NCBI GenBank assembly: GCA_013297765.1
Contig: JAAFID010000016.1
Coordinates: forward strand, 1-36,176
Reading direction: 5' to 3'
DNA: 36,176 bases
Source: Cytophagales bacterium
GTDB lineage: Bacteria > Bacteroidota > Bacteroidia > Cytophagales > Cytophagaceae
The notes beneath the pieces were generated by a model. The model was not told the origin of the DNA. It did no database searches and worked only from the letters and a program-made list of their open reading frames with translations. Position 1 is the first letter of the stretch. Each line of letters starts with the position of its first letter. Positions 15,934 through 33,290 of the stretch are shown here, piece by piece. Made by a program: the position numbers and the translations under genes.

Positions 15934-18039
15934 ATGGCACGCGATTTAAGATACACAAGAAATATAGGTATAGCCGCTCATATTGATGCTGGTAAAACCA
16001 CTACAACAGAGCGTATTCTTTACTATTCTGGAGTAAGCCATAAAATAGGAGAAGTGCACGATGGTGCTGCTACTATGGACTGGATGGAACAAGAGCAAGA
16101 AAGAGGTATTACAATTACATCAGCTGCTACCACAGTAGATTGGATGTATAGAGAAAAAAGCTACCACGTAAACATTATTGATACTCCAGGTCACGTAGAT
16201 TTTACTGTAGAGGTAAATCGTTCACTTAGAGTTTTGGATGGTTTAGTATTTTTATTTAGTGCTGTCGATGGTGTAGAGCCTCAATCTGAAACCAATTGGC
16301 GACTTGCTAACAATTACAATGTTGCTCGCTTGGGATTTGTGAACAAAATGGATAGGTCTGGTGCTGATTTTTTAAATGTTTGCAAGCAAGTAAAAGAAAT
16401 GCTAGGCAGCAATGCAGTAGCCCTTCAACTACCAATAGGTGCCGAAGATAATTTTAAAGGCGTGGTAGATTTGGTAAACTTCCGTGGTATTCAATGGAAT
16501 GAGCATGACAAAGGGATGACCTTTACCGAAGTTCCAATTCCAGATGATATGTTGGAAGAAGCCACAGAATATAGAGAGAAATTATTAGAGGCAATCGCTG
16601 AATTTGACGATTCTCTAATGGAAAAATATTTTGAAGACCCAGCTTCTATTTCAGAAGATGAAATATTTGCAGCATTGAGGAAAGCAACTATTGCAATGAA
16701 GATAGTTCCTATGCTATGCGGTTCTTCATTCAAAAACAAAGGTGTTCAAACAATGCTAGATTATGTGATGGCATTATTACCTTCACCTCTAGATAAAGAT
16801 AACATTGTAGGTACTGACCCTGATACGGGTGTTGAAGTAACTCGCAGACCAGATACCAAAGAGCCATTTACAGCATTAGCATTTAAAATCGCCACCGACC
16901 CTTATGTAGGTCGTCTTTGCTTTATTCGTGCTTATGCTGGTGCTTTAGATTCTGGCTCTTATGTGTACAACACAAGATCGGGCAATAAAGAAAGAATATC
17001 TCGGATATTCCAAATGCATGCTAACAAGCAAAACCAAATTGATAGATTAGAAGCTGGTGATATAGGTGCAGTAGTTGGTTTTAAAGACATCAAAACAGGC
17101 GATACGCTTTGCGACGAAAAATCTAAAATTGTATTGGAATCTATGGATTTCCCAGAACCTGTAATTGGTTATGCTATTGAGCCTAAAACTCAAGCAGACT
17201 CTGACAAATTAGGCATTGCTATTGGGAAATTGGTAGAGGAAGATCCTACTTTGCATGTACATACAGATCATGAAACAGGTCAAACTATTTTAAGAGGTAT
17301 GGGCGAACTTCACCTAGAGATTATTATCGACAGGATGAGAAGAGAGTTTAAGGTTGAGATTAATCAAGGAGCTCCTCAAGTTGCATATAAAGAGGCATTA
17401 ACTAAAAATTATGAAACCAGAGAAGTTTATAAAAAACAAACTGGTGGTAGAGGTAAATTTGCCGATATCGTTTTTGAAATTGGACCAAGAGAAGATGGAA
17501 AGCCAGGTTTAGAGTTTGTAAACGAAATAGTAGGTGGCGTTATTCCTAGAGAATTTATTGCCCCAATCGAGAAAGGTTTTAAAGAAGCTATGAAAACTGG
17601 CGTACTTGCTGGTTATGAATTAGATTCTATGAAAGTTAGATTATATCACGGTTCTTTCCACGATGTCGATTCAGATGCACTGTCTTTTGAACTTGCAGCA
17701 AGAGGTGGGTTTAGAGAAGGAGCAAAACACGCTGGACCCAAGTTGATGGAACCAATAATGAGTGTTGAAGTAATTACTCCAGATGAATATACAGGTTCAG
17801 TAACAGGCGACTTAAACAGAAGACGTGGGTTGATGAAAGGAATGGATGGTAAAATTGGTGGTCAAGTAATTAAAGCTGACGTTCCGTTATCCGAATTGTT
17901 TGGATATGTTACTGACTTAAGAACAATTAGTTCAGGGCGTGCCACCGCTTCACTTACTTTTTCGCATTACGAATTTGTACCTGCTAACTTAGCCGATGGA
18001 ATTGTTGCTAAAGCAAAAGGTATAGCAATGGCAAAATAA
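15934..18039 (+). CDS. fusA: Elongation factor G
   Basis: This 701-residue GTPase drives ribosomal translocation and, with ribosome recycling factor, subunit splitting. The G domain has the P-loop AHIDAGKTT (residues 15-23), the G3 motif DTPGH and the G4 motif NKMD; domain IV and V segments such as [15 protein letters not shown] and [14 protein letters not shown] follow. Length is normal and all GTPase motifs are intact. It lies between rpsG and rpsJ. The elongation factor Tu gene that follows fusA in many other phyla is absent here. Confidence 0.99.
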
Positions 18040-18068
18040 TTTGTTAATTACAGTATTTTATATTTATC

Positions 18069-18374
18069 ATGAATCAAAAAATAAGAATTAAGTTAAAGTC
18101 ATTCGATCATAGCTTAGTCGATAAATCTTCCGAGAAAATCGTAAGAGCAGTAAAATCAACTGGAGCAATTGTGAGTGGCCCTATTCCATTGCCTACCGAA
18201 AAAGAAATATATACAGTCCTTAGATCGCCTCACGTAAACAAAAAAGCGAGAGAGCAATTTCAGATTTGTACCTACAAAAGACTAGTTGATATATACTCTA
18301 CTAGTACCAAAACTGTAGATGCATTAATGAAATTAGAATTGCCTAGCGGCGTTGAAGTAGAGATTAAAGTCTAA
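18069..18374 (+). CDS. rpsJ: 30S ribosomal protein S10
   Basis: S10 (101 residues) is a 30S head protein that also serves in transcription antitermination with NusB. Typical segments are [16 protein letters not shown] and [29 protein letters not shown], the latter being the long loop that reaches into the 30S subunit. It lies 29 bases after fusA and is immediately followed by an intrinsic terminator and a new promoter, so it appears to belong to the rpsL transcription unit rather than to the rplC unit. Confidence 0.99.
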
Positions 18375-18396
18375 CTTATACCAATAGCACATTTGG

Positions 18397-18428
18397 AAAG
18401 AACCAAATTGAATTTGGTTCTTTTTTTT
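18397..18428 (+). terminator. Intrinsic terminator after rpsJ
   Basis: AAAGAACCAAA pairs perfectly with TTTGGTTCTTT around a 5-base loop, and the stem runs into a run of T (18421-18428). It lies 22 bases past the rpsJ stop. This is a canonical rho-independent terminator in the middle of what is usually a continuous ribosomal cluster. Confidence 0.88.
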
Positions 18429-18462
18429 CTCTAAGAAATTAGTAATAAAAATGTGAATAAAG

Positions 18463-18493
18463 TTTGATTGCCTAGATTGTTTTCGTATCTTTG
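18463..18493 (+). promoter_or_regulatory. Promoter upstream of rplC
   Basis: TTTG at 18463-18466 and TATCTTTG at 18486-18493 are 19 bases apart, a full match to the Bacteroidota housekeeping promoter. Transcription should start near 18500, leaving a leader of about 45 bases before rplC, too short for an E. coli-like S10 leader. Confidence 0.88.
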
Positions 18494-18545
18494 CAATCCG
18501 TTTTTAGAAGCGCATAATTTAATAATAAAATAACCTTCCACATTT

Positions 18546-19166
18546 ATGTCTGGATTGATAGGAAAAAAAATTGGCATGACTAGCTTCTTTACTGAAGAAG
18601 GAAAAAGCCTAGGCTGTACTTTAGTTGAAGCTGAAGCTTCGATAGTTTCTCAGATTAAAACCATTGAAAATGATGGCTACTATGCTGTACAGCTTGCTTA
18701 TGGCGATTGCAAAGATAAATCTTTGTCTAAAGCTGAACTGGGTCACTTAGCTAAAGCCAATAGTAAAGGAAAGAGAAAGTTGGTTGAATTTAGAACTTTT
18801 GAAAATCAAGTTTCTTTGGGTCAGGCATTACAGATATCAGATGTTTTTAAAGAAGGTGAAAAAATAATTGCCGTAGGCACATCTAAAGGAAAAGGTTTCC
18901 AAGGTGTTGTTAAAAGACATGGATTTGCTGGGGTTGGTGGTCAAACACATGGTCAGCACAATAGATTAAGACATCCAGGTTCTATTGGAGCTTGTTCTTT
19001 TCCAGGTAGAGTATTTAAAGGAACAAGAATGGGAGGTCGTATGGGTGGCGACAGAGTTAAGGTAAAAAATCTTGAAATATTGAAAATATATCCAGAAAAG
19101 AATTTAATTCTTTTAGCAGGAGCAATACCAGGAGCAAAAAATTCATTTGTAATTCTTGAGAAATAA
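18546..19166 (+). CDS. rplC: 50S ribosomal protein L3
   Basis: L3 (206 residues) is an early assembly protein of the large subunit whose central loop approaches the peptidyl transferase centre. It begins [15 protein letters not shown] and has [17 protein letters not shown] and [17 protein letters not shown], followed by [22 protein letters not shown], the family's signature region. It is the first gene after the mid-cluster promoter. rplD begins one base after its stop, so the two are probably translationally coupled. Confidence 0.99.
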
Positions 19167-19167
19167 T

Positions 19168-19794
19168 ATGGAATTATCTGTAATTAACAATAAAGGTATA
19201 GACACAGGTAGAAAGGTAACCCTATCCGATGATGTGTTTAATGTAGAGCCAAATGACCACTCTATTTATTTAGATGTGAAGCAATATTTGGCCAACCAAA
19301 GACAAGGTACTCACAAATCTAAAGAACGTAATGAAATTGCAGGTTCTACTAGAAAGTTGAAAAAACAAAAAGGTACAGGTGGTGCTCGTGCGGGTAGTAT
19401 AAAATCAGGAACAATAGTAGGTGGTGGTAGAATATTTGGTCCTAGACCAAGAGATTATCATTTCAAACTCAATAAAAAAGTGAAAATATTGGCAAGAAAA
19501 TCTGCCATTGCTTACAAGATTAAAGAATCGTCTATTTTAGTATTGGATGATACTAAAATAGGTACTCCAAAAACTAAATTATTTCTTTCTCTTTTGGGAG
19601 ATTTAAAACTTTTAAACAAAAAAACATTATTAGTACTTCCAGAAGTAAATAATAACGTTTATTTGTCAAGTAGAAATATTTTGAATGCAAAAGTAGTATT
19701 GGCTGAAGATTTATGTACATACGATTTGCTTCATGCAGAAAGTGTTGTTTTGATGGAATCTTCCATTTCAAAAATAGAAAATATCCTTAATTAA
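19168..19794 (+). CDS. rplD: 50S ribosomal protein L4
   Basis: L4 (208 residues) lines the peptide exit tunnel. The long Arg/Gly/Lys-rich loop is clear ([20 protein letters not shown], then [13 protein letters not shown]). A frame with four more residues opens at 19156 inside rplC, but the ATG at 19168, directly after the rplC stop, gives the normal N-terminus. In E. coli L4 represses its own operon through the S10 leader and attenuator; no such leader can be placed here because rpsJ has been separated by a terminator. Confidence 0.98.
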
Positions 19795-19796
19795 TT

Positions 19797-20084
19797 ATGG
19801 AAATTGTATTAAGACCATTGGTAACTGAAAAAGTTACTAAGATGAACGAAAAAGGAACTTACGGTTTTGTTGTAGCTAAAAAAGCAAATAAAATTCAGAT
19901 TAAGTTGTATGTAGAAAAAACATACGGAGTTAATGTGCAATCAGTAAGGACATTAATTGTTGCTGGGAAAGCAAAAAGTAGAAATTCAAAATCTAAAGTA
20001 TTAACTGGTAGTACTTCTGCTTATAAAAAAGCTTTTGTAACTGTGGCTACTGGCGAGGTAATAGATTTTTATTCAGGTTTATAA
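19797..20084 (+). CDS. rplW: 50S ribosomal protein L23
   Basis: L23 (95 residues) sits beside the polypeptide exit and is the docking site for trigger factor and the signal recognition particle. It starts MEIVLRPLVTEKVTKMNEKG and contains NKIQIKLYVEKTYGVNVQSVRT, the usual pattern. It lies two bases after rplD. Nothing unusual is seen. Confidence 0.98.
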   Translation: MEIVLRPLVTEKVTKMNEKGTYGFVVAKKANKIQIKLYVEKTYGVNVQSVRTLIVAGKAKSRNSKSKVLTGSTSAYKKAFVTVATGEVIDFYSGL

Positions 20085-20097
20085 GACTAATTAAGTT

Positions 20098-20919
20098 ATG
20101 TCAGTAAAAAAGTTAAGACCAATCACACCAGGGCAAAGATTTAGAATTGCTCCTTCTTTTGATGAGATTACGACCAATATTCCAGAAAAGTCGTTATTGT
20201 CACCTATAAAAAAATCAGGTGGTAGAAATAGCGAAGGTCGTACTACCATGAGATATATTGGCGGTGGTCACAAAAAACAATATAGAATAATTGATTTTAA
20301 AAGAGATAAGCATAATATTCCTGCAGTAGTAAAATCTGTAGAATACGACCCAAATAGAACTGCTCGTATTGCATTGTTGGCTTATGCAGATGGTGAAAAA
20401 AGATATATAATTGCTCCCGAAGGTATTAAAGTAGGTGCTACTTTAATGTCAGGTACAACTGTTCAACCAGAATTGGGTAACGCAATGCCATTATCACATA
20501 TACCCATGGGTACTGTGATTCATAACATTGAACTTAAAGTAGGTAAAGGTGCATCTATTTGTAGGAGTGCTGGAACTTATGGTCAGTTAGTTGCACGAGA
20601 TGGTAAATTTGCTACTGTAAAATTGCCTTCTGGCGAAATGAGATTAGTTTTAGCTACTTGTTACGCAACTATCGGAACAGTATCTAACGGTGACCACATG
20701 AATGTTGTCATGGGTAAAGCTGGTAGAAACAGATGGATGGGTGTAAGACCTAGAACTAGGCCAGTAGCTATGAATCCAGTAGATCACCCAATGGGCGGTG
20801 GTGAAGGTAGAGCTTCAGGAGGTCATCCAAGATCTAGAAATGGTTTGTACACTAAAGGTAGAAAAACCAGATCTAACAATAAATATTCCGATAATCTCAT
20901 TATTTCAAGAAGAAAGTAA
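20098..20919 (+). CDS. rplB: 50S ribosomal protein L2
   Basis: L2 (273 residues, normal length) is needed for subunit association and peptidyl transferase activity. It has [19 protein letters not shown] near the N-terminus, the double-SH3 core, and the conserved C-terminal [16 protein letters not shown] with the histidine next to the catalytic centre, followed by the Lys/Arg-rich tail. It is flanked by rplW (13 bases) and rpsS (12 bases). Confidence 0.99.
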
Positions 20920-20931
20920 ATTTTATATACA

Positions 20932-21207
20932 ATGGGACGTTCTCTTAAAAAAGGGCCTTATATTGATTTTCGCTTAGACAATAAAGTTCAAGCACTAAAT
21001 GTAAGTGGTAAAAAGACAGTGGTTAAAACTTGGTCTAGAAGATCTATGATTTCTCCTGATTTTGTTGGCCATACATTCGCTGTTCACAACGGCAATAAAT
21101 TTATACCTGTGTATGTTACAGAAAACATGGTAGGTCATAAATTAGGTGAATTTTCTCCTACTAGAAATTTTCGTGGTCATACTGCTAAAAAGGATAAAGG
21201 TAAATAG
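20932..21207 (+). CDS. rpsS: 30S ribosomal protein S19
   Basis: S19 (91 residues) is a 30S head protein that contacts S13 and the A-site tRNA region. It begins [15 protein letters not shown] and includes [23 protein letters not shown] and [16 protein letters not shown], all canonical. Its ATG is preceded by TATACA and no Shine-Dalgarno sequence. rplV starts two bases after its stop. Confidence 0.99.
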
Positions 21208-21209
21208 AC

Positions 21210-21725
21210 ATGGAGCAAGTAATTAAACAAAGAAGATCTGTTGTAAAAAGACAGAAAAAGCAAGCTGAACTTGCTGCCAAAAAAAGCGGTCCCGTTAATG
21301 TAAAACTTAACAATGTTCCTACCTCAACTAGGAAAATGAGATTAGTGGCTGACCTAATTAGAGGTTTAGAAGTAAATAATGCGTTGGGTGTTTTGAAATT
21401 TCAATCCAAGCAAGGTGCTGCGAGATTAGAGAAATTGCTTCTTAGTGCTATGGCAACATGGGAAATTAACCATGGCAAAATTGATGAATACGAATTAATC
21501 GTATCTGAAATATTTGTAGATGGTGGTGCTATTCTTAAAAGACTTAGACCTGCTCCTCAAGGCCGAGCACACAGAGTTAGAAAAAGATCTAATCACGTCT
21601 CTCTTCAAATATCTTCAGTAGGTGCATCTGGACATAATGTTAAATCTGAACTTAAAGAAGTATCAGTAGTTGAAGAAGCACCAGTTGTTACAAAACCAAA
21701 AGTTGCTAAGACTAAAAAATCATAA
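21210..21725 (+). CDS. rplV: 50S ribosomal protein L22
   Basis: L22 lines the exit tunnel with a long beta-hairpin. The core runs from [20 protein letters not shown] to [18 protein letters not shown]. At 171 residues it is much longer than E. coli L22 (110): about 30 Lys/Gln/Arg-rich residues precede the core and an acidic-then-basic tail ([19 protein letters not shown]) follows. The start two bases after rpsS fits tight packing of the operon, so the N-terminal extension seems real; N-terminal extensions are common in Bacteroidota L22. Confidence 0.97.
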
Positions 21726-21752
21726 TTATAAAGATATTATCATATTACTACA

Positions 21753-22544
21753 ATGGGTCAAAAAGTAAATCCAATAGGTTTTAGATTAGGAATAGTAAAA
21801 GGTTGGGATTCTAATTGGTATGGGGGAAGAACTTTTGCTGAGAAATTAGTAGAAGACGAGAAAATTAGAAACTATGTTTTTGCTAGAATTCCTAAAGGTG
21901 GAATATCTAAAATAATCATTGAAAGAACACTTAAACGGGTTACGCTTACTATCAATACCGCAAGACCAGGTGTTGTAATAGGTAAAGGTGGCACAGAGGT
22001 AGATAATATCAAAGAAGAATTAAAGAAAATCACGGGTAAAGATGTTCAAATAAACATATTTGAAATTAAAAGACCTGAACTTGATGCTAAACTTGTTGGT
22101 GAATCTATTGCTCAACAATTGCAAGCAAGAATTTCTTTTAGAAGAGCAATGAAGCAATCTATTTCTTCTACAATGAGAGTAGGCGCTTTGGGTATAAAAG
22201 TTAAACTTTCTGGTAGATTAGGTGGTGCTGAAATGGCAAGATCTGAACAATATAAAGAAGGTCAAATTCCTTTACATACTTTAAGAGCAGACATAGATTA
22301 TGCTTTATCGGAAGCCTTAACTGTATATGGTAAAATTGGTATCAAAGTATGGATATTCAAAGGCTTAGTTTATGGAAAGAGAGATTTGTCGCCTAATATA
22401 GGCATGAATGCCTCCGTCGCCAATACTTCCTCTTCAAATTCTGCTGATTCTGGAAAATATCCTGCTGACAGAAAGAAAAGAGACAACAGCAGACCAGATA
22501 GAAGAGGTGGTAATTCATCTCCAAGAAAACCAAAGGATAATTAA
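21753..22544 (+). CDS. rpsC: 30S ribosomal protein S3
   Basis: S3 (263 residues) forms part of the mRNA entry channel and has helicase-related function. It begins [20 protein letters not shown], has the KH-domain GxxG as [13 protein letters not shown], and the C-terminal domain segment [28 protein letters not shown] Ser/Arg/Lys/Asp-rich low-complexity tail of about 45 residues extends it beyond the E. coli length (233). It is preceded by CTACAATG without a Shine-Dalgarno sequence. Confidence 0.99.
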
Positions 22545-22573
22545 TTAATACTTCAAGTATAAATTTGTAGATA

Positions 22574-22990
22574 ATGTTACAACCGAAGAGAACAAAGTAT
22601 AGAAAGCAGCAAAAAGGGAGAGTAAAAGGGATTGCAACTAGAGGAGCAAATATTGAATTTGGTTCTTATGCAATCAAATCCTTGGAGCCTGGTTTTATTA
22701 CCTCTCGTCAATTAGAAGCGTGTAGAATAGCTATTACAAGAGCTATGAAACGTGAAGGGCAAGTTTGGATTAGAATTTTCCCTGATAAACCAATTACCAA
22801 AAAACCTGCAGAGGTTCGTATGGGTAAAGGTAAAGGAGCACCTGAATATTGGGTTGCTATTGTTAAGCCAGGTACTATTTTGTTTGAAGCAGGCGGAGTA
22901 ACAAAAGAATTAGCTTACGAAGCACTAAGATTGGCTCAAGGAAAATTGCCAGTGATAACTAAATTTGTAGTTAAACCCGATGCTATCTAA
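22574..22990 (+). CDS. rplP: 50S ribosomal protein L16
   Basis: L16 (138 residues) helps position the A-site tRNA at the peptidyl transferase centre. It starts [19 protein letters not shown] and has [33 protein letters not shown], then [27 protein letters not shown], with the arginine that is hydroxylated in some bacteria lying in this last segment. It is 29 bases after rpsC and 5 before rpmC. Confidence 0.99.
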
Positions 22991-22995
22991 TTGAT

Positions 22996-23190
22996 ATGAA
23001 AAAGTCTGAAATAAAAAAATTATCCATTTCTGAAATTAAACAACAAACGTTGGTTCAAAAGGATTTGGTATCGAAGTTAAAATTTTCTCATGCCATTTCT
23101 CCTTTAGAGAATTCTTCAAATATCAGAAAGGCAAAGAAAAATGTTGCTAGATTGCTAACTGAGGCTAGAATTAAAGAAAATAATATTTAG
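22996..23190 (+). CDS. rpmC: 50S ribosomal protein L29
   Basis: L29 is a 64-residue two-helix protein near the exit tunnel that packs against L23. It has [48 protein letters not shown], the usual pattern with a conserved proline/asparagine turn. The rpsQ start follows its stop by one base. Confidence 0.97.
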
Positions 23191-23191
23191 T

Positions 23192-23467
23192 ATGGAAACT
23201 ACAGAACAATTACAAGAAAGAAAATTAAGAAAAGAAAGAGTGGGTAAAGTTGTCAGCAATAAAATGACAAAATCAATCACTGTTGCTGTAGAGAGAAAAG
23301 TAAAACATAGTAAATATGAAAAATTTATTCATAAGACGACTAAGTTAATGGCTCACGATGAAGCTAATACTTGTAACATTGGCGACACTGTTAGAATTAT
23401 GGAAACTCGTCCATTGAGTAAAAGCAAAAGATGGAGATTGGTTGAGGTGGTTGAGAGAGTGAAATAA
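23192..23467 (+). CDS. rpsQ: 30S ribosomal protein S17
   Basis: S17 (91 residues) is a primary 16S-binding OB-fold protein. It shows [42 protein letters not shown] and [26 protein letters not shown], all canonical. It starts one base after rpmC and is followed by a 30-base gap to rplN. Confidence 0.98.
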
Positions 23468-23497
23468 TACTTATATAGATTGATACTTTATTAGGAT

Positions 23498-23866
23498 ATG
23501 ATACAACAAGAGTCAAGATTAATTGTAGCGGATAACAGTGGTGCCAAAGAAGTGCTTGTTATACGTGTATTAGGTGGTACCAAGAAAAGATACGCATCTC
23601 TTGGAGACAAGGTAGTAGTTGCTATTAAATCTGCAATATCATCTAGTAATGTAAAAAAAGGAACTGTTTCTAAGGCCGTTATTGTACGTACTTCTAAAGA
23701 AGTTCGCAGACCAGATGGTTCGTATATTAGATTTGCAGACAACGCAGCAGTATTGTTGAACAACAGTGATGAGCCAAGAGGAACTCGTATATTCGGTCCA
23801 GTAGCTCGTGAATTGAGAGAAAAACAATTTATGAAAATTGTATCATTGGCACCAGAAGTATTGTAA
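23498..23866 (+). CDS. rplN: 50S ribosomal protein L14
   Basis: L14 (122 residues, the standard length) is a five-stranded barrel that contacts 16S rRNA and forms an intersubunit bridge. It begins [29 protein letters not shown] and ends with [28 protein letters not shown]. It starts the part of the cluster that is a separate spc operon in E. coli, but no promoter was seen before it here. Confidence 0.99.
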
Positions 23867-23868
23867 TT

Positions 23869-24213
23869 ATGAAAAGTATTAAATCTGCTAAGGTAAAAAT
23901 TAATTTAAGAAAGGGCGATAATGTTATTGCTATTTCTGGAGATTCTAAAGGTAAAACTGGGATAATTACTTCTGTTTTAACTCAGGACAATAAAGCAATT
24001 GTAGCTGGACTTAACATTGTAACTAAACATGTTAAACCTACTACAAATAAACCTAATGGCTCTATTGAGAAAATGGAAGCACCTATTCATATTTCTAATT
24101 TACTTATTGTTGATTCAAAAGGTAAAGCAAGTAAAATTGGAAAGAAATTGAATAAAGAAGGTAAATTCATTCGTATAGCTAAAACTACAGGGGAGGAAAT
24201 TAAAAATGGCTAA
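23869..24213 (+). CDS. rplX: 50S ribosomal protein L24
   Basis: L24 (114 residues) is an assembly-initiating protein of the large subunit. The KOW motif is at the N-terminus ([23 protein letters not shown]), followed by [20 protein letters not shown] and [17 protein letters not shown]. Its last eight bases overlap the start of rplE, and its final codons (Gly-Glu-Glu) contain a Shine-Dalgarno-like GGGGAGG that lies at the right distance to serve rplE. Confidence 0.98.
24190..24196 (+). promoter_or_regulatory. Shine-Dalgarno-like sequence before rplE
   Basis: GGGGAGG lies inside the end of rplX, nine bases before the rplE ATG. It is one of only two strong Shine-Dalgarno matches I found before genes in this window, and it decides the overlapping rplE start. 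Confidence 0.6.
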
Positions 24214-24760
24214 TCCAAGATTAAAAGATAAATACTTAAAGGAAGTTGCTCCATCATTAGTGACCAAGTTCCAATATAAATCATCGATGCAAACGCCTAA
24301 AATTACTAAAATTGTAATTAATAGAGGGATTGGTGCAGCGGTTGCTGATAAGAAGCTAATTGATGTAGGTGTTGATGAGCTAAGTACTATTACTGGTCAA
24401 AAAGCAGTATCTACAAAATCTAAAATTGACGTTTCTAACTTTAAATTGAGAGCTAATGTACCCATTGGTGCAAAGGTTACATTAAGAGGTGATAGAATGT
24501 ACGAATTTCTAGATCGTTTGATGACAGTAGCTTTGCCAAGGGTTAGAGATTTTAAAGGCATAAATGATAAAGGTTTTGACGGCAGAGGTAATTACACTCT
24601 AGGTGTTAAAGAGCAAATTATTTTTCCAGAAATTTCTATCGACAAAGTATCTAAAATCTCTGGTATGGACATCACATTCGTGACTACAGCCAATACAGAT
24701 GAAGAAAGTTTAGAATTGTTGAAGCAATTTGGGATGCCATTTGCAAATCAAAAAAAATAA
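24206..24760 (+). CDS. rplE: 50S ribosomal protein L5
   Basis: L5 (184 residues) binds 5S rRNA and contacts the P-site tRNA. It has [58 protein letters not shown] and [20 protein letters not shown], all family signatures. Its start lies inside rplX (eight-base overlap) and is preceded by a strong Shine-Dalgarno-like element, unlike nearly every other gene in the block. Confidence 0.99.
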
Positions 24761-24780
24761 TTTTATAAAAATAACATACA

Positions 24781-25050
24781 ATGGCTAAGGAATCGATTAA
24801 AGCTAGAGGTGATAAAAAAATTAAACTAGTAGCTAAATATGCTGTAAAAAGAGCCGCTTTAAAAGCAGCTGGTGACTGGTTGGCATTGGATAAATTGCCA
24901 AGAAGTTCATCAAAAGTGAGAATTCACAACAGATGTAATTTAACTGGTCGTCCTAGAGGATATATGAGAAAATTTGGAATCAGTAGGGTTCTATTTAGAG
25001 ACATGGCCTCTGCTGGTAAAATACCTGGCTTAACGAAATCTAGCTGGTAA
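24781..25050 (+). CDS. rpsN: 30S ribosomal protein S14 (zinc-free type)
   Basis: S14 (89 residues) is a 30S head protein. It is the long, zinc-independent form: it lacks the CxxC...CxxC cluster of the 61-residue type and keeps only one cysteine in [24 protein letters not shown]. The C-terminal [11 protein letters not shown] is canonical. It is followed by a 67-base gap, the widest inside the rplC-to-rplQ block, which holds an internal promoter. Confidence 0.98.
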
Positions 25051-25051
25051 T

Positions 25052-25082
25052 TTTGTATTCAGTAATTTATTTCATATCTTTG
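25052..25082 (+). promoter_or_regulatory. Internal promoter upstream of rpsH
   Basis: TTTG at 25052-25055 and TATCTTTG at 25075-25082 are 19 bases apart, with the same -7 box, spacing and downstream GCA as the rplC promoter. Transcription should begin near 25089, about 30 bases before rpsH. There is no terminator hairpin between rpsN and this promoter, so it adds to read-through. Confidence 0.85.
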
Positions 25083-25117
25083 CAGCCCTCTTTATAACAA
25101 CACTAATATTTAATACA

Positions 25118-25513
25118 ATGACAGATCCAATTGCAGATTACCTTACTAGGTTACGTAATGCGATTAAAGCTAATCATAGAATTGTAGAGATTCCATCATC
25201 TTCTATAAAGAAGGAAATCACTAAAGTTTTATTTGATAAAGGTTACATCCTAAATTATAAATTTGATTCTACTGGTGTTCAAGGTTTAATCAAAATTGCA
25301 TTGAAGTATAATGCACAAACTAAAGAATCCGCAATCACTAGTTTAGAAAGATTCAGCTCACCTGGTTTGCGTAAGTATTCTCAATCTGGAGATATACCTA
25401 GAGTATTGAATGGTTTAGGTGTTGCTATAGTTACCACTTCTAAAGGAGTAATGACAGACAAAGAAGCCAGGAAAATGAATGTTGGTGGCGAAGTGTTGTG
25501 TTTTGTTTATTAA
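25118..25513 (+). CDS. rpsH: 30S ribosomal protein S8
   Basis: S8 (131 residues) binds helix 21 of 16S rRNA early in assembly. It begins MTDPIADYLTRLRNAIKA and ends with GVAIVTTSKGVMTDKEARKMNVGGEVLCFVY, both typical. In E. coli S8 represses the spc operon by binding near the rplE start; I did not detect an equivalent structure. A full promoter just upstream makes it the first gene of a second internal unit. Confidence 0.99.
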   Translation: MTDPIADYLTRLRNAIKANHRIVEIPSSSIKKEITKVLFDKGYILNYKFDSTGVQGLIKIALKYNAQTKESAITSLERFSSPGLRKYSQSGDIPRVLNGLGVAIVTTSKGVMTDKEARKMNVGGEVLCFVY

Positions 25514-25523
25514 TTGATTTTAT

Positions 25524-26078
25524 ATGTCAAGAATAGGAAATAAACCAGTTGTTTTGCCAGCGAAGGTAGAAGTGACTGTATCAAAAAATAATGATGTTGT
25601 TGTAAAAGGACCTAAAGGTTCCCTTACAAGAGCTATAGATAAAGATATATCAGTATCTGTTGAAAACGGTATTTTGTCTGTAACAAGACCTACTGAGCAG
25701 AAACGCCATAAAGCACTTCATGGATTGTATAGATCATTAATCAACAATATGGTTCATGGCGTTAGCGAAGGTTACAAAATTGACTTAGAATTGGTTGGTG
25801 TAGGTTACAAAGCTACTGCTAATGCTAATATATTGGAATTAAGTTTGGGTTATTCTCATGCTATATTCTTTTCATTACCTACTGAAGTTTCTGTTAAAGC
25901 TGTAACTGATAAAGGTAAGAATCCGATTGTAACTTTGGAATCATCCGATAAAGAATTAATAGGTCAAATATCCGCAAAAATTAGGTCTCTAAGAAAAGTA
26001 GAGCCATATAAAGGCAAAGGTGTAAGATTTGTGAATGAGGTGGTAAGAAGGAAAGCTGGTAAAACTGCAGCTAAATAA
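25524..26078 (+). CDS. rplF: 50S ribosomal protein L6
   Basis: L6 (184 residues) consists of two similar domains near the GTPase-associated centre. Segments MSRIGNKPVVLPAKVEVTV, VKGPKGSLTRAI, GVGYKATANANILELSLGYSH and the C-terminal RKVEPYKGKGVRFVNEVVRRKAGK are canonical. It lies ten bases after rpsH and 30 before rplR. Confidence 0.99.
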   Translation: MSRIGNKPVVLPAKVEVTVSKNNDVVVKGPKGSLTRAIDKDISVSVENGILSVTRPTEQKRHKALHGLYRSLINNMVHGVSEGYKIDLELVGVGYKATANANILELSLGYSHAIFFSLPTEVSVKAVTDKGKNPIVTLESSDKELIGQISAKIRSLRKVEPYKGKGVRFVNEVVRRKAGKTAAK

Positions 26079-26108
26079 TAACTGTTCTATTAGAATAATA
26101 ACTGATTC

Positions 26109-26459
26109 ATGGCAACTAATAAAGATCTTCGTAGATCAAAAATTAAAAAATCAATACGTGGAAAAGTCACGGGGACTACTGAAAAGCCAAGATTGTCTAT
26201 TTTCAGAAGTAATGATGATGTATATGCACAACTTATAGATGATTCTAAAGGACATACTGTTTTATCATTTTCTACCAAATTGGTAAAAAACGAAACTGGT
26301 ACCAAAATAGACTTGTCGAAATTGGCTGGTAAAATGTTGGCTGAAAAAGCTGTGCAAAATGGTATTTCTTCAATAGTATTTGATAGAAATGGTTACCTGT
26401 ACCATGGTAGAGTTAAAGCACTTGCAGAAGGTGCAAGAGAAGGCGGACTTAAATTTTAG
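26109..26459 (+). CDS. rplR: 50S ribosomal protein L18
   Basis: L18 (116 residues) binds 5S rRNA together with L5. It has a basic N-terminus, [29 protein letters not shown], and the C-terminal [26 protein letters not shown]. It is eight bases before rpsE. Nothing unusual is seen. Confidence 0.99.
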
Positions 26460-26467
26460 ATATTTAT

Positions 26468-26986
26468 ATGGCACAAACAAATCTTCGTTCTGTTAAGGCA
26501 AGCGAAATCGAGCTTAAAGAAAAAGTTGTTGCGATTCAAAGAGTTGCTAAAGTAGTAAAAGGTGGTAGAAGATTCAGCTTTGCGGCAATAGTAGTAGTAG
26601 GGGATGGCAAAGGAGTTGTTGGTTATGGTTTAGGTAAGGCCAATGAAGTAACAGATGCTATTACCAAAGGAATTGATGATGCTAAGAAGAATCTAATTAA
26701 GGTTCCTGTGTTGAAAAATACTTTGCCTCATCCTATGCATGGCAAATTTTCTGGAGGTTATGTATTTCTGAAGCCAGCAGCAGCAGGTACTGGAGTAATA
26801 GCGGGCGGTGCAATGAGAGCTGTTCTAGAAAGTGCAGGCATTAAGGATGTACTTGCTAAATCAAAAGGTTCTTCAAATCCTCACAATGTGGTAAAAGCTA
26901 CTTTTGATGCTTTGTTGAAAATGAGGGCACCTCATTTAATAGCAGAAGCTAGAGGCGTAGATTTGAATAAAGTTTTTAACGGTTAG
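26468..26986 (+). CDS. rpsE: 30S ribosomal protein S5
   Basis: S5 (172 residues) takes part in decoding accuracy and the mRNA entry channel. The N-terminal dsRNA-binding-like domain has [33 protein letters not shown], and the C-terminal domain has [21 protein letters not shown] and [19 protein letters not shown]. It is followed four bases later by rpmD. Confidence 0.99.
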
Positions 26987-26990
26987 TATT

Positions 26991-27170
26991 ATGTCTATAG
27001 TAAAAATTACACAGGTTCGTAGTCTTATTGATAGACCTAGCAACCAAAGAAGAACGATACAAGCATTGGGACTTGGTCGCATTAATAAATCGGTTGAAGT
27101 TAATCTTACCCCACAAATTCAAGGGATGATTAATCATGTTAATCACTTAATTTCAGTTAAAGTTCTTTAA
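26991..27170 (+). CDS. rpmD: 50S ribosomal protein L30
   Basis: This 59-residue gene is short but clear from its sequence and position between rpsE (four bases) and rplO (two bases). The product reads MSIVKITQVRSLIDRPSNQ, then RRTIQALGLGRINKSVEV and a C-terminal MINHVNHLISVKVL, the standard L30 layout with the RPxxQRxTxxALGL signature. L30 is a small large-subunit protein; it is missing in some bacteria but kept here. Confidence 0.97.
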   Translation: MSIVKITQVRSLIDRPSNQRRTIQALGLGRINKSVEVNLTPQIQGMINHVNHLISVKVL

Positions 27171-27172
27171 TA

Positions 27173-27619
27173 ATGAAACTTGAAAATTTGAAACCAGCTT
27201 ATGGCTCGGTAAAAAATACTAAAAGAATAGGTCGCGGTACTGGTAGCGGTAGAGGTGGTACTTCTACAAGGGGGCATAAAGGTGCGAAATCTAGATCGGG
27301 TTACAGTTCTAAACCAGGATTTGAAGGAGGTCAAATGCCTTTACATAGACGTTTACCTAAATTTGGATTTACTAACCCCAATAGAGTAGAATTTAAAGGA
27401 ATTAATCTTGATGCACTTCAACTTATTGCTGATAAGATAGGGGGAAGTAAAATAGATATTCAAGTTCTTATAGAGAATGGCTACGTTTCTAAAAGTGCGA
27501 AAGTTAAAATTTTAGGTAGAGGTGAATTTAAATCTAAAATCGAAGTATTTGCAAATGCCTTTACTGCTTCTGCAGCTAAAGCGATTGAAAGTGCAGGCGG
27601 TAAAGCTGTTATAGTATAA
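27173..27619 (+). CDS. rplO: 50S ribosomal protein L15
   Basis: L15 (148 residues) is a late-assembly large-subunit protein. The Gly/Arg-rich N-terminal arm (RIGRGTGSGRGGTSTRGHKGAKSR) and GFEGGQMPLHRRLPKFGF are diagnostic. Its TAA stop shares a base with the secY ATG (TAATG), implying translational coupling. Confidence 0.99.
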   Translation: MKLENLKPAYGSVKNTKRIGRGTGSGRGGTSTRGHKGAKSRSGYSSKPGFEGGQMPLHRRLPKFGFTNPNRVEFKGINLDALQLIADKIGGSKIDIQVLIENGYVSKSAKVKILGRGEFKSKIEVFANAFTASAAKAIESAGGKAVIV

Positions 27620-28944
27620 TGAAACGGTTGATACAAACCATAAAAAACATTTTTGCAATCGGTGATTTAAGAATAAGAATTCTTAACACCGTTGCTTTTT
27701 TGCTTGTTTTCAGATTAGGATCTTATGTGGTATTGCCTGGAGTAAATCCTGCAGCTATTGAGGATTCCAATGCTCAATCTGGTTTCCTAGGAATTGTAAA
27801 TACCTTTAGCGGCGGAGCATTTAGTAACGTTTCTGTATTTGCCCTAGGTATCATGCCTTATATTACCGCTTCGATAGTTATTCAATTGTTGACATTTGCA
27901 GTACCACAAGTTCAAAAGTTACAAAAAGAAGGTGAATCAGGTAGAAAAAAACTTAACAATTGGACAAGGTTATTAACCATTGTCGTTTGTACTTTTCAGT
28001 CGGTAGGATATTTAGCGGCTTACGTTAAGCCAGATATGATATTTTTTGGTATGGATAGCTTATTCTTTTATGTAAGCCGAATTATCATTCTTATCTCTGG
28101 AACGATGTTTTGTCTATGGTTAGGTGAAAAAATTACAGATAAAGGTATCGGCAATGGTACTTCAATGCTTATCATGATTGGTATTATTTCTCGCTTCCCT
28201 CATGCTATTACAATAGAAGGTTACTCTAAAGGTATGAAAGGTGCTTTTCCTTTTGTCTTGGAGTTGGTCGCTTTATTCTTCGTTGTAATGTTTGTTGTGA
28301 TGATTACTCAGGCCGTTCGTAAAATTCCTGTTCAATATGCTAAGCAAGTTGTAGGCAATAAAGTATATGGTGGTCAAAGACAATATTTACCATTAAAAGT
28401 GATAGCAGCGGGTGTAATGCCGATTATTTTTGCACAATCTGTAATGGTACTACCTCCAATGTTGGCCAGTTTCTTTGGAAATGATAGCGATACTGCAATG
28501 CAATTAGCTTCTACCTTTTCTGATTTTACTTCGTGGCAATACAATTTGTTATTGGTTTTTCTAATAGTTGTTTTCACCTTCTTCTATACCGCATTATCTG
28601 TTAATCCTAAAAATATTTCAGATGATATGAAGAGAAATGGTGGCTTTATAGCTGGTGTTAAACCTGGTGATGAAACTTCTAATTTTATTGATGAGGTATT
28701 GTCTAGAATTACATTCCCTGGAGCCTTGTTCTTGTGTGCTATTGCAATTCTACCTGCTATTGCTTCTATGGTAGGTATTACAAGAGAATTTGCCTATTTC
28801 TATGGTGGTACATCTTTACTGATAGTAGTAGGAGTGGTGTTAGATACTATTCAACAGGTTGATAGTTATTTGTTGATGAAAGAATATGATGGTATGATGA
28901 AGTCTGGAAAAGTACTTGGTACTTCACCTACTTCACCAGCATAA
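27619..28944 (+). CDS. secY: Preprotein translocase subunit SecY
   Basis: SecY (441 residues, about ten transmembrane helices) is the protein-conducting channel of the Sec translocon, working with SecE, SecG and SecA. It has the N-terminal FRLGSYVVLPGVNPAAIED, the GGAFSNVSVFALGIMPYITASI plug/TM2 region, DKGIGNGTSMLIMIGIISR, and the cytosolic loop VQYAKQVVGNKVYGGQRQYLPLKV. Its start overlaps the rplO stop by one base. It exports all the signal-peptide proteins predicted in this window. Confidence 0.99.
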   Translation: MKRLIQTIKNIFAIGDLRIRILNTVAFLLVFRLGSYVVLPGVNPAAIEDSNAQSGFLGIVNTFSGGAFSNVSVFALGIMPYITASIVIQLLTFAVPQVQKLQKEGESGRKKLNNWTRLLTIVVCTFQSVGYLAAYVKPDMIFFGMDSLFFYVSRIIILISGTMFCLWLGEKITDKGIGNGTSMLIMIGIISRFPHAITIEGYSKGMKGAFPFVLELVALFFVVMFVVMITQAVRKIPVQYAKQVVGNKVYGGQRQYLPLKVIAAGVMPIIFAQSVMVLPPMLASFFGNDSDTAMQLASTFSDFTSWQYNLLLVFLIVVFTFFYTALSVNPKNISDDMKRNGGFIAGVKPGDETSNFIDEVLSRITFPGALFLCAIAILPAIASMVGITREFAYFYGGTSLLIVVGVVLDTIQQVDSYLLMKEYDGMMKSGKVLGTSPTSPA

Positions 28945-28969
28945 TAGCATCTTAATAATTATCTTTCAG

Positions 28970-29740
28970 ATGTTATATTACAAGACACGTGAAGATGTTG
29001 ATATAATTAAGCAATCTTCTGAAATATTAGCACATGTTCATGCTATAGTTGCTAGTAATATAAAAGAAGGAGTTGCTACGGTTGATTTAGATTTGTTGGC
29101 ATTTAAATATATAACTGATAAAGGAGGGTATCCTTCTTTTAAGAATTATAACGGTTTTCCTGCATCCTTATGTATTTCTATTAATGATGGGGTTGTTCAT
29201 GGATTGCCAAGTAATTATAAATTGAAGCAGGGAGATGTAGTTTCAATAGATTGCGGAGTATTTTATAAAGGTTTCCATAGTGATTCTGCATATACTTATG
29301 CAGTAGGCGAGGTTTCAGATGAAGTAAACACATTATTGAAAACTACAAAAGAATCGCTCTATGTTGGTATTGAGCTTGCAAAAGTGGGAAATAGATTAGG
29401 AGATGTGGGAAATGCAATCCAAACTCATGTAGAGAAAAAAGGTTTTTCAGTAGTTAGAGAATTGGTAGGTCATGGAATAGGTAAAAGCCTACATGAGTCA
29501 CCAGAAGTTCCTAATTATGGAAAAAGAGGACAGGGTTTCAAATTGCAAGATAATTTAGTGCTAGCAATTGAACCAATGGTAAATTTAGGAAAAAAGAATA
29601 TATTTCAGGATCGTGATGGTTGGACGATACGAACAGTTGATAAAAAACCTTCTGCTCATTTTGAACATACTGTTTTGATTAATAAAAATACACCTGAGAT
29701 ATTGACCACATTTAAATACATAGAGGAGGCACTAAATTAA
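28970..29740 (+). CDS. map: Methionine aminopeptidase, type I
   Basis: This 256-residue enzyme removes the initiator methionine from new proteins. The five dinuclear-metal ligands are visible: two aspartates in [18 protein letters not shown], the histidine in [10 protein letters not shown], the glutamate in IEPMVN and the one in FEHTV. A frame opening at 28916 inside secY would add 18 residues (VLHLLHQHNS...) unlike the family; the ATG at 28970 gives the usual [14 protein letters not shown]. Its stop overlaps the infA start by one base, and its last codons hold a Shine-Dalgarno-like GAGGAGG. Confidence 0.97.
29723..29729 (+). promoter_or_regulatory. Shine-Dalgarno-like sequence before infA
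   Basis: GAGGAGG lies within the final Glu-Glu codons of map, ten bases before the infA ATG. It contains the full AGGAGG core complementary to the conserved anti-Shine-Dalgarno, unusual in a region where other genes have only A/T-rich leaders. Confidence 0.6.
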
Positions 29741-29958
29741 TGTCGAAACAGTCGTCAATAGAACAAGATGGAATAATCATCGAGGCATTATCAAATGCTA
29801 TGTTTAGAGTGGAGTTGGAGAATGGACATCAAGTGGTAGCTCATATATCAGGTAAAATGAGAATGAACTACATTAAGATTTTGCCAGGAGATAAAATACG
29901 ATTAGAAATGTCTCCTTACGATTTATCAAAAGGAAGAATTGTTTACAGATATAAATAA
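29740..29958 (+). CDS. infA: Translation initiation factor IF-1
   Basis: IF-1 (72 residues, standard length) binds the 30S A site during initiation. The OB-fold sequence runs [31 protein letters not shown] to [16 protein letters not shown]. It overlaps map by one base and is eight bases before rpmJ. It is one of two genes here preceded by a strong Shine-Dalgarno-like sequence. Confidence 0.99.
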
Positions 29959-29966
29959 GATTTAAG

Positions 29967-30083
29967 ATGAAAGTAAAAACTTCAATTAAAAAAAGAAGCG
30001 CCGACTGCAAAATTATTCGCAGACACGGAAAGCTTTATGTAATAAATAAAAAGAATCCAAGGTTCAAACAAAGACAAGGTTAA
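29967..30083 (+). CDS. rpmJ: 50S ribosomal protein L36 (zinc-ligand-poor type)
   Basis: L36 is a 38-residue protein reading [19 protein letters not shown], then [19 protein letters not shown]. The zinc-binding form has three cysteines and a histidine; here only the cysteine at position 14 remains and the others are Ser, Asn and Phe, so it should not bind zinc. The gene is intact between infA (eight bases) and rpsM (three bases). This form agrees with what I recall for Bacteroidota. Confidence 0.97.
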
Positions 30084-30086
30084 TAT

Positions 30087-30464
30087 ATGGCTAGAATTGC
30101 TGGTGTAGACATCCCTGATAATAAAAGAGGGGAGATAGCTCTAACGTACATTTACGGCATAGGTCGTAAATCTGCTCAAACAATCCTTACGAAAGCAGGG
30201 GTTAATTATGATAAAAAAGCGAATGCTTGGAGTGATGATGAATCAACTGCAATTCGTACTGTGATAGGTGCCGAATATAAAGTTGAGGGGGTCTTGAAGT
30301 CTGAAGTTCAAATGAGCATTAAACGTCTTTTGGATATTGGTTGCTATCGTGGATTAAGACATAGAAAAGGTCTTCCTGTTCGTGGTCAAAGAACTAAAAA
30401 TAATTCTAGAACTCGTAAGGGTAAGAGAAAAACTGTAGCAAATAAAAAGAAAGCAACTAAATAA
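30087..30464 (+). CDS. rpsM: 30S ribosomal protein S13
   Basis: S13 (125 residues) sits at the top of the 30S head and contacts the P-site tRNA and L5. It begins [26 protein letters not shown] and has [20 protein letters not shown] followed by the basic tail [20 protein letters not shown]. It lies three bases after rpmJ. Confidence 0.99.
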
Positions 30465-30476
30465 TTAATCCTTATT

Positions 30477-30884
30477 ATGGCACAACAACAAGTGGCTGGT
30501 AAAAGAAAAGACAAAGCCAAAAAAAGAGTTGTAATCGTGGAAGCGGTTGGTGAAGCTCATATAAGGGCTTCTTTTAACAATATTATTATTTCATTGACTA
30601 ACCTTTCGGGTCAAGTTGTATCTTGGGCATCTGCTGGAAAAATGGGTTTCAAAGGGTCTAAGAAAAACACTCCTTATGCTGCTCAAATGGCAGCTCAACA
30701 ATGTGCCCAAACTGCATATGACTTAGGTATGAGAAAAGTCGAAGTTTTTGTAAAAGGGCCAGGCTCAGGAAGGGAATCTGCAATTCGTACTTTACAAAAT
30801 TCAGGTTTAGAAGTCACTCTTATCAAAGATGTAACACCCCTTCCACATAATGGATGCAGACCTCCTAAAAAGAGAAGGGTTTAA
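30477..30884 (+). CDS. rpsK: 30S ribosomal protein S11
   Basis: S11 (135 residues) lines the platform near the E site. The segment [37 protein letters not shown] and the C-terminal [17 protein letters not shown] are canonical; the last includes the asparagine-glycine that is isomerised in E. coli S11. It is 12 bases after rpsM. Confidence 0.99.
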
Positions 30885-30913
30885 TTATTGTTTTATAGAG
30901 AAAATTCAGAGTA

Positions 30914-31519
30914 ATGGCTAGATATACAGGTCCAAAACAAAAAATTGCTAGAAAGTTTAATGATCCAATCTTTGGACCTAGCAAAGTTTTACAAAAGAAA
31001 AATTATCCTCCTGGGATGCATGGTAGAGGCAAGAAAAGAAAAATGTCGGAATATGCAGTTCAGTTAAGTGAAAAGCAAAAAGCTAAATATACTTATGGTG
31101 TACTGGAGCGTCAATTTGCTAAAATATTCGAAGTTGCTGCAAAGAAAGAAGGTATTACGGGAGAGAATCTCTTAAAATTTCTAGAAGCAAGACTTGATAA
31201 TACTGTTTTTCGTTTGGGAGTTGCAACTACAAGAAGAGCTGCACGACAACTGGTATTGCATAAACATATTACTGTAAATGGGGAAATAGTAAATATTCCT
31301 TCTTACACTTTGAAACCAGGAGATGTAGTAGGTGTACGTGAGAAATCTAAATCGTTAGAGATAGTAACAAATAGTTTGGCAACAACCTTATCCAAAAAGT
31401 TCTCTTGGTTAGAATGGGATGGCAAGGATTTGATTGGCAAATTTGTAACCTATCCTATGAGAGATGAAATTCCTGAGAGAATAAATGAACAATTAATCGT
31501 AGAGTTGTACTCTAAATAA
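30914..31519 (+). CDS. rpsD: 30S ribosomal protein S4 (zinc-free type)
   Basis: S4 (201 residues) is a primary 16S-binding protein that nucleates the 30S body. It begins [21 protein letters not shown] and lacks the N-terminal cysteine cluster of the zinc-binding form. The S4 RNA-binding domain has [34 protein letters not shown]. In E. coli S4 represses the alpha operon through a pseudoknot before rpsM; I cannot identify that structure in the three-base rpmJ-rpsM spacer. Confidence 0.99.
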
Positions 31520-31570
31520 TCCTAGTACGCCTATAATTGTTTCATTGAATTTAATTTAAATAACAAAACA

Positions 31571-32560
31571 ATGTCTATACTTTCATTTCAAATTCCCGAT
31601 AAGGTGGTAATGGAAAAGGCTGATGATTTTCACGGTCTATTCGAATTCAAACCTTTGGAAAAAGGCTATGGTATTACTGTAGGTAATGCTTTAAGAAGAA
31701 TCCTTTTATCTTCTTTAGAGGGTTATGCAATTACAGGAATTAAAATACCAGGTGTTTTGCATGAATTTTCTACCATACCTGGTGTGGTGGAAGATGTATC
31801 TGAGATAATTCTTAACTTAAAGCAAGTAAGATTTAAGAAAATTTCAGAGAACGTTGACTCTAAATGTGTCATTTCAATAAAAAAACAGGAAGAATTTAAA
31901 GCTGGAGATATTTCTAAATTTACCTCCACTTTTCAAATTCTGAATCCAGAGTTTTCAATTTGCAAATTAGATTTAAGCGTCAATTTGGATATTGAAATTA
32001 CGATTGAGAAAGGTCGTGGTTATGTTCCAGCCGAAGAAAATAAATTAGGAGATCAAGTTTTTGGATATATTCCTATTGATGCTATTTTTACGCCAATTCG
32101 AAATGTAAAATATAGTATTGAGAATACTCGTGTGGAACAAAAAACTGATTACGAGAAACTGATACTTGATATAGAAACTGATGGCTCTATACACCCAGAG
32201 GATGCTTTGAAGGGGGCTGCAAACATATTGATTAAGCACTTTATGTTATTCTCGGATCAAACGATGACCTTTGAAACTGCAAAGGCAGATGAAGAAGATA
32301 CTGTAGATGAAGAGTTCTTGCACATGAGAAAATTGCTTAAAACTTCTCTTGCAGATTTAGATTTGTCTGTTCGTGCATACAACTGTTTAAAAGCAGCTGA
32401 TATCAAAACATTAGGAGATTTAGCTGCTCTTGATATTTCTGATATGATGAAGTTCAGAAATTTTGGTAAAAAATCACTTGCTGAGTTAGAGCAATTAATA
32501 AACGATAAAAACCTTTCTTTCGGAATGGATTTATCTAAATATAAATTAGACGAGGATTAA
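31571..32560 (+). CDS. rpoA: DNA-directed RNA polymerase subunit alpha
   Basis: The alpha subunit (329 residues) dimerises to start assembly of RNA polymerase. The N-terminal domain has [28 protein letters not shown]; an acidic linker ([10 protein letters not shown]) leads to the C-terminal domain with [22 protein letters not shown] and [13 protein letters not shown], whose arginine in SVRAYNCLK corresponds to the UP-element contact R265 of E. coli. A 51-base A/T-rich leader with ACAATG start context precedes it; no promoter was seen there. Confidence 0.99.
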
Positions 32561-32565
32561 TAATC

Positions 32566-33060
32566 ATGAGACACGGTAAAAAAATAAATCACTTAGGAAG
32601 AACAGCTCAGCATAGACAAGCATTATTGTCAAATATGGCTTCTTCATTGATTTTGAGCAAAAGAATTACTACTACCCTTGCAAAAGCCAAGGCGTTGAAA
32701 AAATATGTAGAGCCTTTATTGACTAGATCTAAAGATGATTCTACGCACTCGAGAAGGCTGGTTTTCTCTTATCTTCAAAACAAAGAATCAGTAGATCAAT
32801 TGTTCACTGATGTAGCAGTCAAAATTGCGAATAGACCAGGTGGATATACTAGAATTATTCGTGTTGGTACTAGATTAGGCGATAATGCTGAAATGTGCAT
32901 TATGGAATTGGTAGATTACAATACCATCTATGGAAATAAAACCAATACTACTGCTGCTAAAAACAAAACTAGAAGGTCTAAAAAATCTGCTAGTACTGCA
33001 TCTGTAGTAGATTCAACTACAGATATTATTTCTACAGAAGAGCAATCAAAATCAGAATAA
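32566..33060 (+). CDS. rplQ: 50S ribosomal protein L17
   Basis: L17 opens with [29 protein letters not shown] and includes [30 protein letters not shown], the family's hallmarks. At 164 residues it exceeds the E. coli length (127) through a Lys/Ser/Thr-rich, finally acidic C-terminal tail of about 40 residues. It is the last gene of the block, five bases after rpoA, and is followed by a strong terminator. Confidence 0.98.
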
Positions 33061-33075
33061 TATTATCATGAATGA

Positions 33076-33113: not shown

Positions 33114-33290
33114 ATTTTTTAAAGACTTGATTTTTTTAGGAATAACAACCCTTTACTTGTTCTACTTGCATCCATATCTAATTTATTTTATGGCAAAATA
33201 TAACTCGTTATTCTGTAATTTAAAAACAGACTTTATGTAACAAGCAATACATTTTCCTTTTTCTCATTCATAATTCATAAACTTGCTAAA

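Follow-up and report, generated by a model that had tools for sequence, protein, structure and literature searches.

As an example of conserved gene order the S10-spc-alpha cluster has entered the textbooks, and the borders of its units are poorly known outside a few model organisms. In a genome of the Cytophagales the spacer between rpsN and rpsH raised the question whether the rear part of the cluster has a promoter of its own and, if so, whether the partition differs from that of E. coli. The initial annotation had proposed both. We analysed the window, i.e. the whole stretch of 36,176 nucleotides of contig JAAFID010000016.1, along with loci from the same order, from other orders of the class and from other classes. 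The features of the window (all + strand) are:

24781-25050, +, rpsN (S14), final gene of the front half (ORF; Pfam Ribosomal_S14)
25051-25117, +, rpsN-rpsH spacer, 67 nt (sequence)
25052-25055, +, -33 element TTTG (sequence; TTTG at equal distance in 20 of 79 box-bearing relatives, 2.9 expected)
25075-25082, +, -7 element TATCTTTG (sequence; conserved in relatives)
25087-25117, +, predicted leader of the rpsH transcript, 31 nt, without predicted fold (start placed by the -12 to -5 register)
25118-25513, +, rpsH (S8), first gene of the rear half (ORF; Pfam Ribosomal_S8)
25118-33060, +, rear unit rpsH-rplQ with secY, infA and rpoA (ORFs)
18395-18425, +, terminator-like hairpin in the rpsJ/rplC interval (terminator scan)
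18463-18493, +, rplC promoter, start of the front unit (motif match; junction conservation)
33076-33113, +, terminator-like hairpin 3' of rplQ (terminator scan)

The spacer between rpsN and rpsH

The arrangement before rpsH was exactly as claimed: TTTG at 25052-25055 is followed after 19 nt by TATCTTTG at 25075-25082 and then by CAGCCC. With 67 nt the spacer is also the widest of the rplC-rplQ block, as had been stated, the runner-up among true gaps being rpsD-rpoA with 51 nt. The rpsE-rplO and infA-rpsM stretches are longer (186 and 128 nt, respectively) but contain short ORFs reading as L30 (rpmD) and L36 (rpmJ), which is why rpsN-rpsH ranks as the widest real gap. The names rpmD and rpmJ were taken from the sequence alone, and the other gene names of the rear unit were read from the sequence unless a Pfam match exists. 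S8 of a Cytophagales genome of the same genus was 83% identical to S8 of the window.

A scan of 17900-33200 yielded no terminator-like site on the + strand between 18994 and 33000, in agreement with the earlier statement that no terminator lies upstream of the spacer. Because there is no terminator in between, read-through from the rplC promoter may contribute to transcription of the rear genes. Repeats near the spacer were weak, with two short direct ones and two long-range inverted ones, the latter 79-83% complementary. Another box resembling a -7 element, TAATTTTG, spans 25048-25055; it overlaps the stop codon of rpsN, encloses the TTTG of the rpsH promoter and is probably incidental.

Promoter class and predicted start

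The passages of PMC9723704 and PMC6847099 on Flavobacterium promoters place TAnnTTTG at -12 to -5, and the revised -7 consensus in a passage of PMC6847099 is TAHHTTTG. The -7 box of the window, TATCTTTG, matches both. The primary sigma promoter of the Bacteroidota (sigma-ABfr or sigma-A) consists of a -33 TTTG and a -7 TAnnTTTG. The window has both elements, 19 nt apart, and they are no different from that promoter; only the location inside the S10-spc-alpha cluster is unusual. The published register from T-12 to G-5 puts the start near 25087 with a leader of 31 nt, which is 2 nt off the 5' end at about 25089 estimated initially.

We favor, with considerable confidence, the view that the spacer is a Bacteroidota-type housekeeping sigma-A promoter that yields a second rpsH-rplQ transcript nested in rplC-rplQ. 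RNA polymerase would recognise TTTG and TATCTTTG and initiate near 25087, both transcription and the exact start being predictions. The second transcript, from rpsH to rplQ, would add to the read-through from the rplC promoter.

TTTG-N18..20-TANNTTTGC was enriched in the own genome, with 68 sites versus 8 for the reversed pattern; TANNTTTGCANNCC had 44 sites versus 5. Thirty loci of TANNTTTGCANNCC were read. Nine precede tRNA genes (Val, Ser, Leu, Asn, Trp, Pro twice, Met and Glu; at the tRNA-Trp locus secE comes next), six precede the genes for L19, L21, S21, a class I aminoacyl-tRNA synthetase, L3 and S8, and one precedes threonine synthase, while 14 lie within reading frames or before nothing recognised. 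S20 was among the loci of the TTTG-N18..20-TANNTTTGC pattern. A classical sigma-70 scan, based on a model unsuited to this phylum, gave 57 sites versus 59.7 in shuffles. We consider the promoter of the spacer very likely real and conserved, its type being known and its location uncommon.

The combined TTTG / TAnnTTTG box was frequent immediately 5' of tRNA and ribosomal-protein genes of the own genome (L003, L004, L005, L009, L013-L015, L022, L344-L372), often with CAnnCC directly 3' of the box. In most rplC leaders the box is followed by CAGTCC (C in 50/53 at position 5 and in 49/53 at position 6). The rpsH leaders mostly read CA..CC, with C at positions 5 and 6 in 62/74 and 60/73, respectively. 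The E. coli discriminator offers an analogy: a G+C-rich stretch in this position would be consistent with regulation by growth rate or ppGpp.

Comparison with chance and with the rplC promoter

TTTG-N17..21-TATCTTTG was found twice in the window, before rpsH and before rplC (18463-18493), with 0.11 sites expected from shuffles; 0 of 100 window shuffles reached two sites. The looser TTTG-N17..21-TANNTTTG gave the same two sites and one match on the - strand at 6230. The description of the element as nearly identical to the rplC promoter held for both elements and their spacing, but not for the 19-nt spacer between them, in which 9 of 19 positions are identical. Altogether 25 of 38 aligned positions agree.

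To weigh a functionless chance resemblance, the 67 nt of the spacer were dinucleotide-shuffled 20,000 times. By itself the -7 box arose in 6.4% of the shuffles, a rate that lends some support to chance, whereas the pair TTTG-N18..20-TANNTTTG appeared in 0.05%. Thus the -7 box is unremarkable by itself; what is remarkable is the full element together with its conservation. Because the box is found in 79 of 109 relatives versus 9.0 expected and clusters are split at the same point (see below), a chance resemblance is hardly credible.

Conservation of the box

We located the genes of ribosomal proteins with tblastn in loci from 120 Cytophagales genomes, window included. The main count comprised 109 of these. 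The other 11, with rpsN and rpsH unmapped within 700 nt, were omitted from the count and then read individually; 2 of 95 genomes were omitted likewise from the count for the class, as were 4 of 15 loci of other classes with rpsH unmapped. The conservation check suggested by the initial annotation showed TAnnTTTG before rpsH in 79 of the 109 Cytophagales genomes with adjacent rpsN, compared with 9.0 in shuffles. As control patterns in the same spacers, the reversed motif was found in 18 and the reverse complement in 5, so that the reversed pattern exceeds the shuffle mean of the true one. The box reads TAnnTTTGC in 77 of the 79 cases. A small number of the 79 boxes are probably chance matches, e.g. 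that of L229, with 5 nt left between box and start codon. All of the other 11 genomes had TAnnTTTG within 130 nt 5' of rpsH, the shuffle control covering the 109 only.

A -33 TTTG at 18-20 nt accompanied the box in 20 of 79 relatives (2.9 expected) and was missing in 59. Thus most relatives have a -7 box without a clear -33 element. By family, the box was present in 14/14 genomes of the family of the window, in 8/8 each of f11 and f15 and in 7/7 each of f5, f13 and f19. It was rare in f18 (0/7), f21 (1/6), f4 (1/8) and f2 (2/8).

The 30 of 109 genomes with adjacent rpsN and no box (including 7/7 of f18, 7/8 of f4, 6/8 of f2 and 5/6 of f21) bear on the possibility that the promoter is real but minor here, with rpsH-rplQ mRNA derived nearly entirely from rplC read-through and the box being condition-specific or a relic. 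In its favor, these relatives manage without a box, and in the window the + strand is free of terminator-like sites between 18994 and 33000. On the other hand, the box was stable on a FastTree tree made from five joined ribosomal proteins, on which the Cytophagales rows formed one group (108/109): it changed 11 times within the order versus 26.4 under shuffled labels, the minimum of 500 label shuffles being 20. These few changes, together with splits at exactly rpsN|rpsH, speak against a relic, for the order as a whole rather than for the promoter of the window in particular. We consider a merely minor promoter rather improbable.

The box was distributed unevenly over the cluster. In the order set it was present at rpsJ-rplC in 20/20 genomes covered and at rpsQ-rplN in only 1/71, and the remaining junctions apart from rpsN-rpsH had 0 to 2 boxes. 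The DNA of this set mostly ends about 400 nt past rpsH (1.5 kb for short loci), and the junctions from rpsE on represent 1-2 genomes. The 30-nt rpsQ-rplN spacer of the window is without a box. In a set of 80 named loci, which shares records with the unnamed set and is not independent of it, the box occurred at rpsN-rpsH in 59/78 and at rpsJ-rplC in 41/50, followed by rplO-secY (10/75), rpsG-fusA (6/38), rpsE-rplO, which contains rpmD (6/75), and rpsC-rplP (4/69). Other orders of the class had it at rpsN-rpsH in 9/93 (2.2 in shuffles) and at rpsJ-rplC in 2/46; in other classes 1 of 11 loci had it at rpsN-rpsH.

S8 was without a match at E up to 0.001 in all four genomes of genus g4, which belongs to the family of the window (G006-G009; completeness 88-94%). 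Perhaps the ribosomal cluster is missing from these bins, which would explain the result.

Natural splits of the cluster at rpsN|rpsH

In 10 of the 11 Cytophagales genomes set aside above (seven from f9 and three from f22), the cluster is physically interrupted at rpsN|rpsH. The front half stops after rpsN in 10/10, and rpsH is located elsewhere behind its own box. Neither rplE nor rpsN mapped 5' of rpsH within 8.5 kb (six genomes), 2.4 kb (L251) or 1.5 kb (L045, L047 and L054). The upstream reading frames matched none of the mapped ribosomal-cluster proteins of the window, the only proteins used in this comparison. The rplE gene was on a different contig except in G044, where rpsH (C1:922756-923145) and rplE (C1:1172884-1173054) lie about 250 kb apart on one contig.

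A script called a terminator-like hairpin within 120 nt 3' of rpsN in 9 of the 10 split genomes; for G026, the remaining one, inspection by eye showed a hairpin after rpsN whose loop is longer. Applied to six unsplit genomes the same script made one call, a hairpin behind the box. Where rpsN adjoins rpsH, the rpsH box was rarely preceded by a terminator-like hairpin (4/79; named set 1/58), and at rpsJ-rplC one preceded the box in 9/20 (named set 38/40). The eleventh genome, G030, has rpsN and rpsH about 920 nt apart with a terminator-like hairpin after rpsN.

Unsplit members exist in both families, namely G086 in f9 and G071, G057, G084 and G109 in f22. Therefore at least two separate breaks are likely, i.e. 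the cluster likely broke at rpsN|rpsH at least twice independently. Since the cuts fall at rpsN|rpsH and leave rpsH behind its own box, the promoter reading is very likely, and the natural operon splits are its strongest support. The relatives with a broken cluster suggest that the promoter is able to carry the rear half alone. They also suggest a course of operon fission in which an internal promoter comes first and separation with a terminator on the front half comes next.

RNA structure at the junction

We also considered that the element acts mainly as RNA, i.e. as a leader, a stabilising 5' hairpin or a processing site, with the TTTG box being incidental. The Cytophagales as a group lend this some support: of 73 distinct leaders, 33 (3.7 expected) surpass 95% of their own shuffles in folding, and two further RNA motifs were found at the rpsN-rpsH junction in other orders (see below). 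In Cytophagales rpsH leaders such as L034, L181, L231 and L208 a hairpin starts a few bases after the -7 box, and at so short a distance the extreme 5' end of the transcript may therefore be paired. Against a role as RNA stands the leader of the window, which has no predicted fold, its folding energy being zero. The models of the two motifs, R1 and R2, matched neither the window nor 85 Cytophagales loci at E up to 1. Furthermore, the box is in promoter register and is found in equal form before tRNA genes. We regard a function mainly as RNA as very improbable and retain the sigma-A promoter as the preferred reading.

A 5'-terminal hairpin as part of the element of the window was dropped; it is frequent in relatives and absent in the window. 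With Rfam 15 at gathering thresholds the rpsN-rpsH junction gave no match in 31 loci. The window and 16 further loci were without any match at these thresholds, and 15 other loci yielded only an S4-Bacteroidia leader, in L174.

Candidate RNA leaders before rpsH in other orders

Outside the Cytophagales 50 of 93 spacers were shorter than 40 nt, and many of the longer ones had hairpins directly 5' of rpsH. One candidate leader, A, was noted directly 5' of rpsH in the Flavobacterium-like families f23 and f26 (L095, L329, L319, L282, L093, L086, L099, L100, L084, L091, L092 and L089). Its alignment A2 of 12 sequences has 12 pairs, 7 of them with two-sided changes. The covariation score was 0.470 versus 0.189 in shuffles, with 0/500 reaching it and a slid maximum of 0.196; the number of pairs with two-sided changes was reached by 103/500. 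Rfam matched 0 of the 11 loci scanned out of these 12. With E limited to 0.01, model R1 matched 6 of the 149 genomes of the class, 6/6 directly before rpsH, of which four are training sequences and two are independent (G152 and G204). Among 37 loci it gave 14 matches, two outside training (L088 and L270).

Leader B was noted in several other families of the class (L273, L276, L265, L316, L320, L303, L292, L293, L309, L323, L271, L332, L314 and L174) as a hairpin with the rpsH start codon close 3' of it. Alignment A1 (14 sequences; 7 pairs, of which 4 show two-sided changes) has a covariation score of 0.432 versus 0.276 in shuffles (0/500 reach it; slid maximum 0.264). Four two-sided pairs were reached by 71/500 shuffles and the number of pair types by 418/500. 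With E limited to 0.1, model R2 matched 22 of the 149 genomes. Twenty-one matches were directly before rpsH, 10 of these outside training; the exception was a weak match in G387, and the training genomes G348 and G457 were missed. In the 80 named loci R2 matched only L172, and R1 gave one weak match (E 0.21) in L131, away from rpsH.

Both are candidate leaders, and S8 as the ligand is a guess from gene position. Perhaps the covarying leaders before rpsH in other orders are S8 feedback targets. Table 1 of PMC7247131 has 20 ribosomal leaders, none of them for S8. Compared by eye with the S8 site of 16S rRNA helix 21, the leaders of the other orders, flavobacterial ones included, gave no clear match. 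The same junction provides, in other orders, two candidate leaders open to S8-binding tests.

Unit boundaries compared with E. coli

According to a passage of PMC10931766 the spc operon of E. coli starts at rplN (uL14), and S8 is a known regulator of spc. The E. coli spc promoter and the promoter proposed here are alike in lying inside the S10-spc-alpha order and in heading a unit that reaches the spc and alpha genes. In contrast to E. coli the Cytophagales would start four genes further, at rpsH, and with the promoter sequence of their own phylum. Thus the S10-spc-alpha cluster of most Cytophagales would consist of two nested units, rplC-rplQ and rpsH-rplQ, whose inner boundary lies at rpsN|rpsH instead of 5' of rplN. 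The internal promoter that had been postulated is supported by the boxes in 79/109 and 11/11 genomes and by the 10 split genomes; the shifted partition finds support in the rpsH boxes, in the 1/71 boxes at rpsQ-rplN and in the 10 splits at rpsN|rpsH.

Most of the order would accordingly use a different unit boundary from that of E. coli. If this is true, the dosage of rpoA, secY and infA is tied to S8 rather than to L14. S8 control of spc in E. coli is autogenous with its target at rplE. In the window the gene for S8, rpsH, heads the rear unit, but an S8-like RNA site was not found in the spacer. Among the titles and abstracts listed for the phylum, none reported an rpsH promoter or an S8 leader. 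We regard the partition at rpsN|rpsH as new, while the promoter type was already known.

A broader reading is tentative and, in our estimate, rather doubtful: rpsN|rpsH may be a control point of spc in much of the Bacteroidia, operated by the promoter in Cytophagales and by the two covarying RNA leaders in Flavobacterium-like and other genomes, and the promoter may have let the cluster break there at least twice.

At the front of the cluster, a terminator-like hairpin and a promoter at 18375-18545 part rpsJ from rplC, with a box at this junction in 20/20 genomes of the order and in 2/46 of other orders. Because of the hairpin and promoter between rpsJ and rplC, S10 belongs to the rpsL-rpsG-fusA unit.
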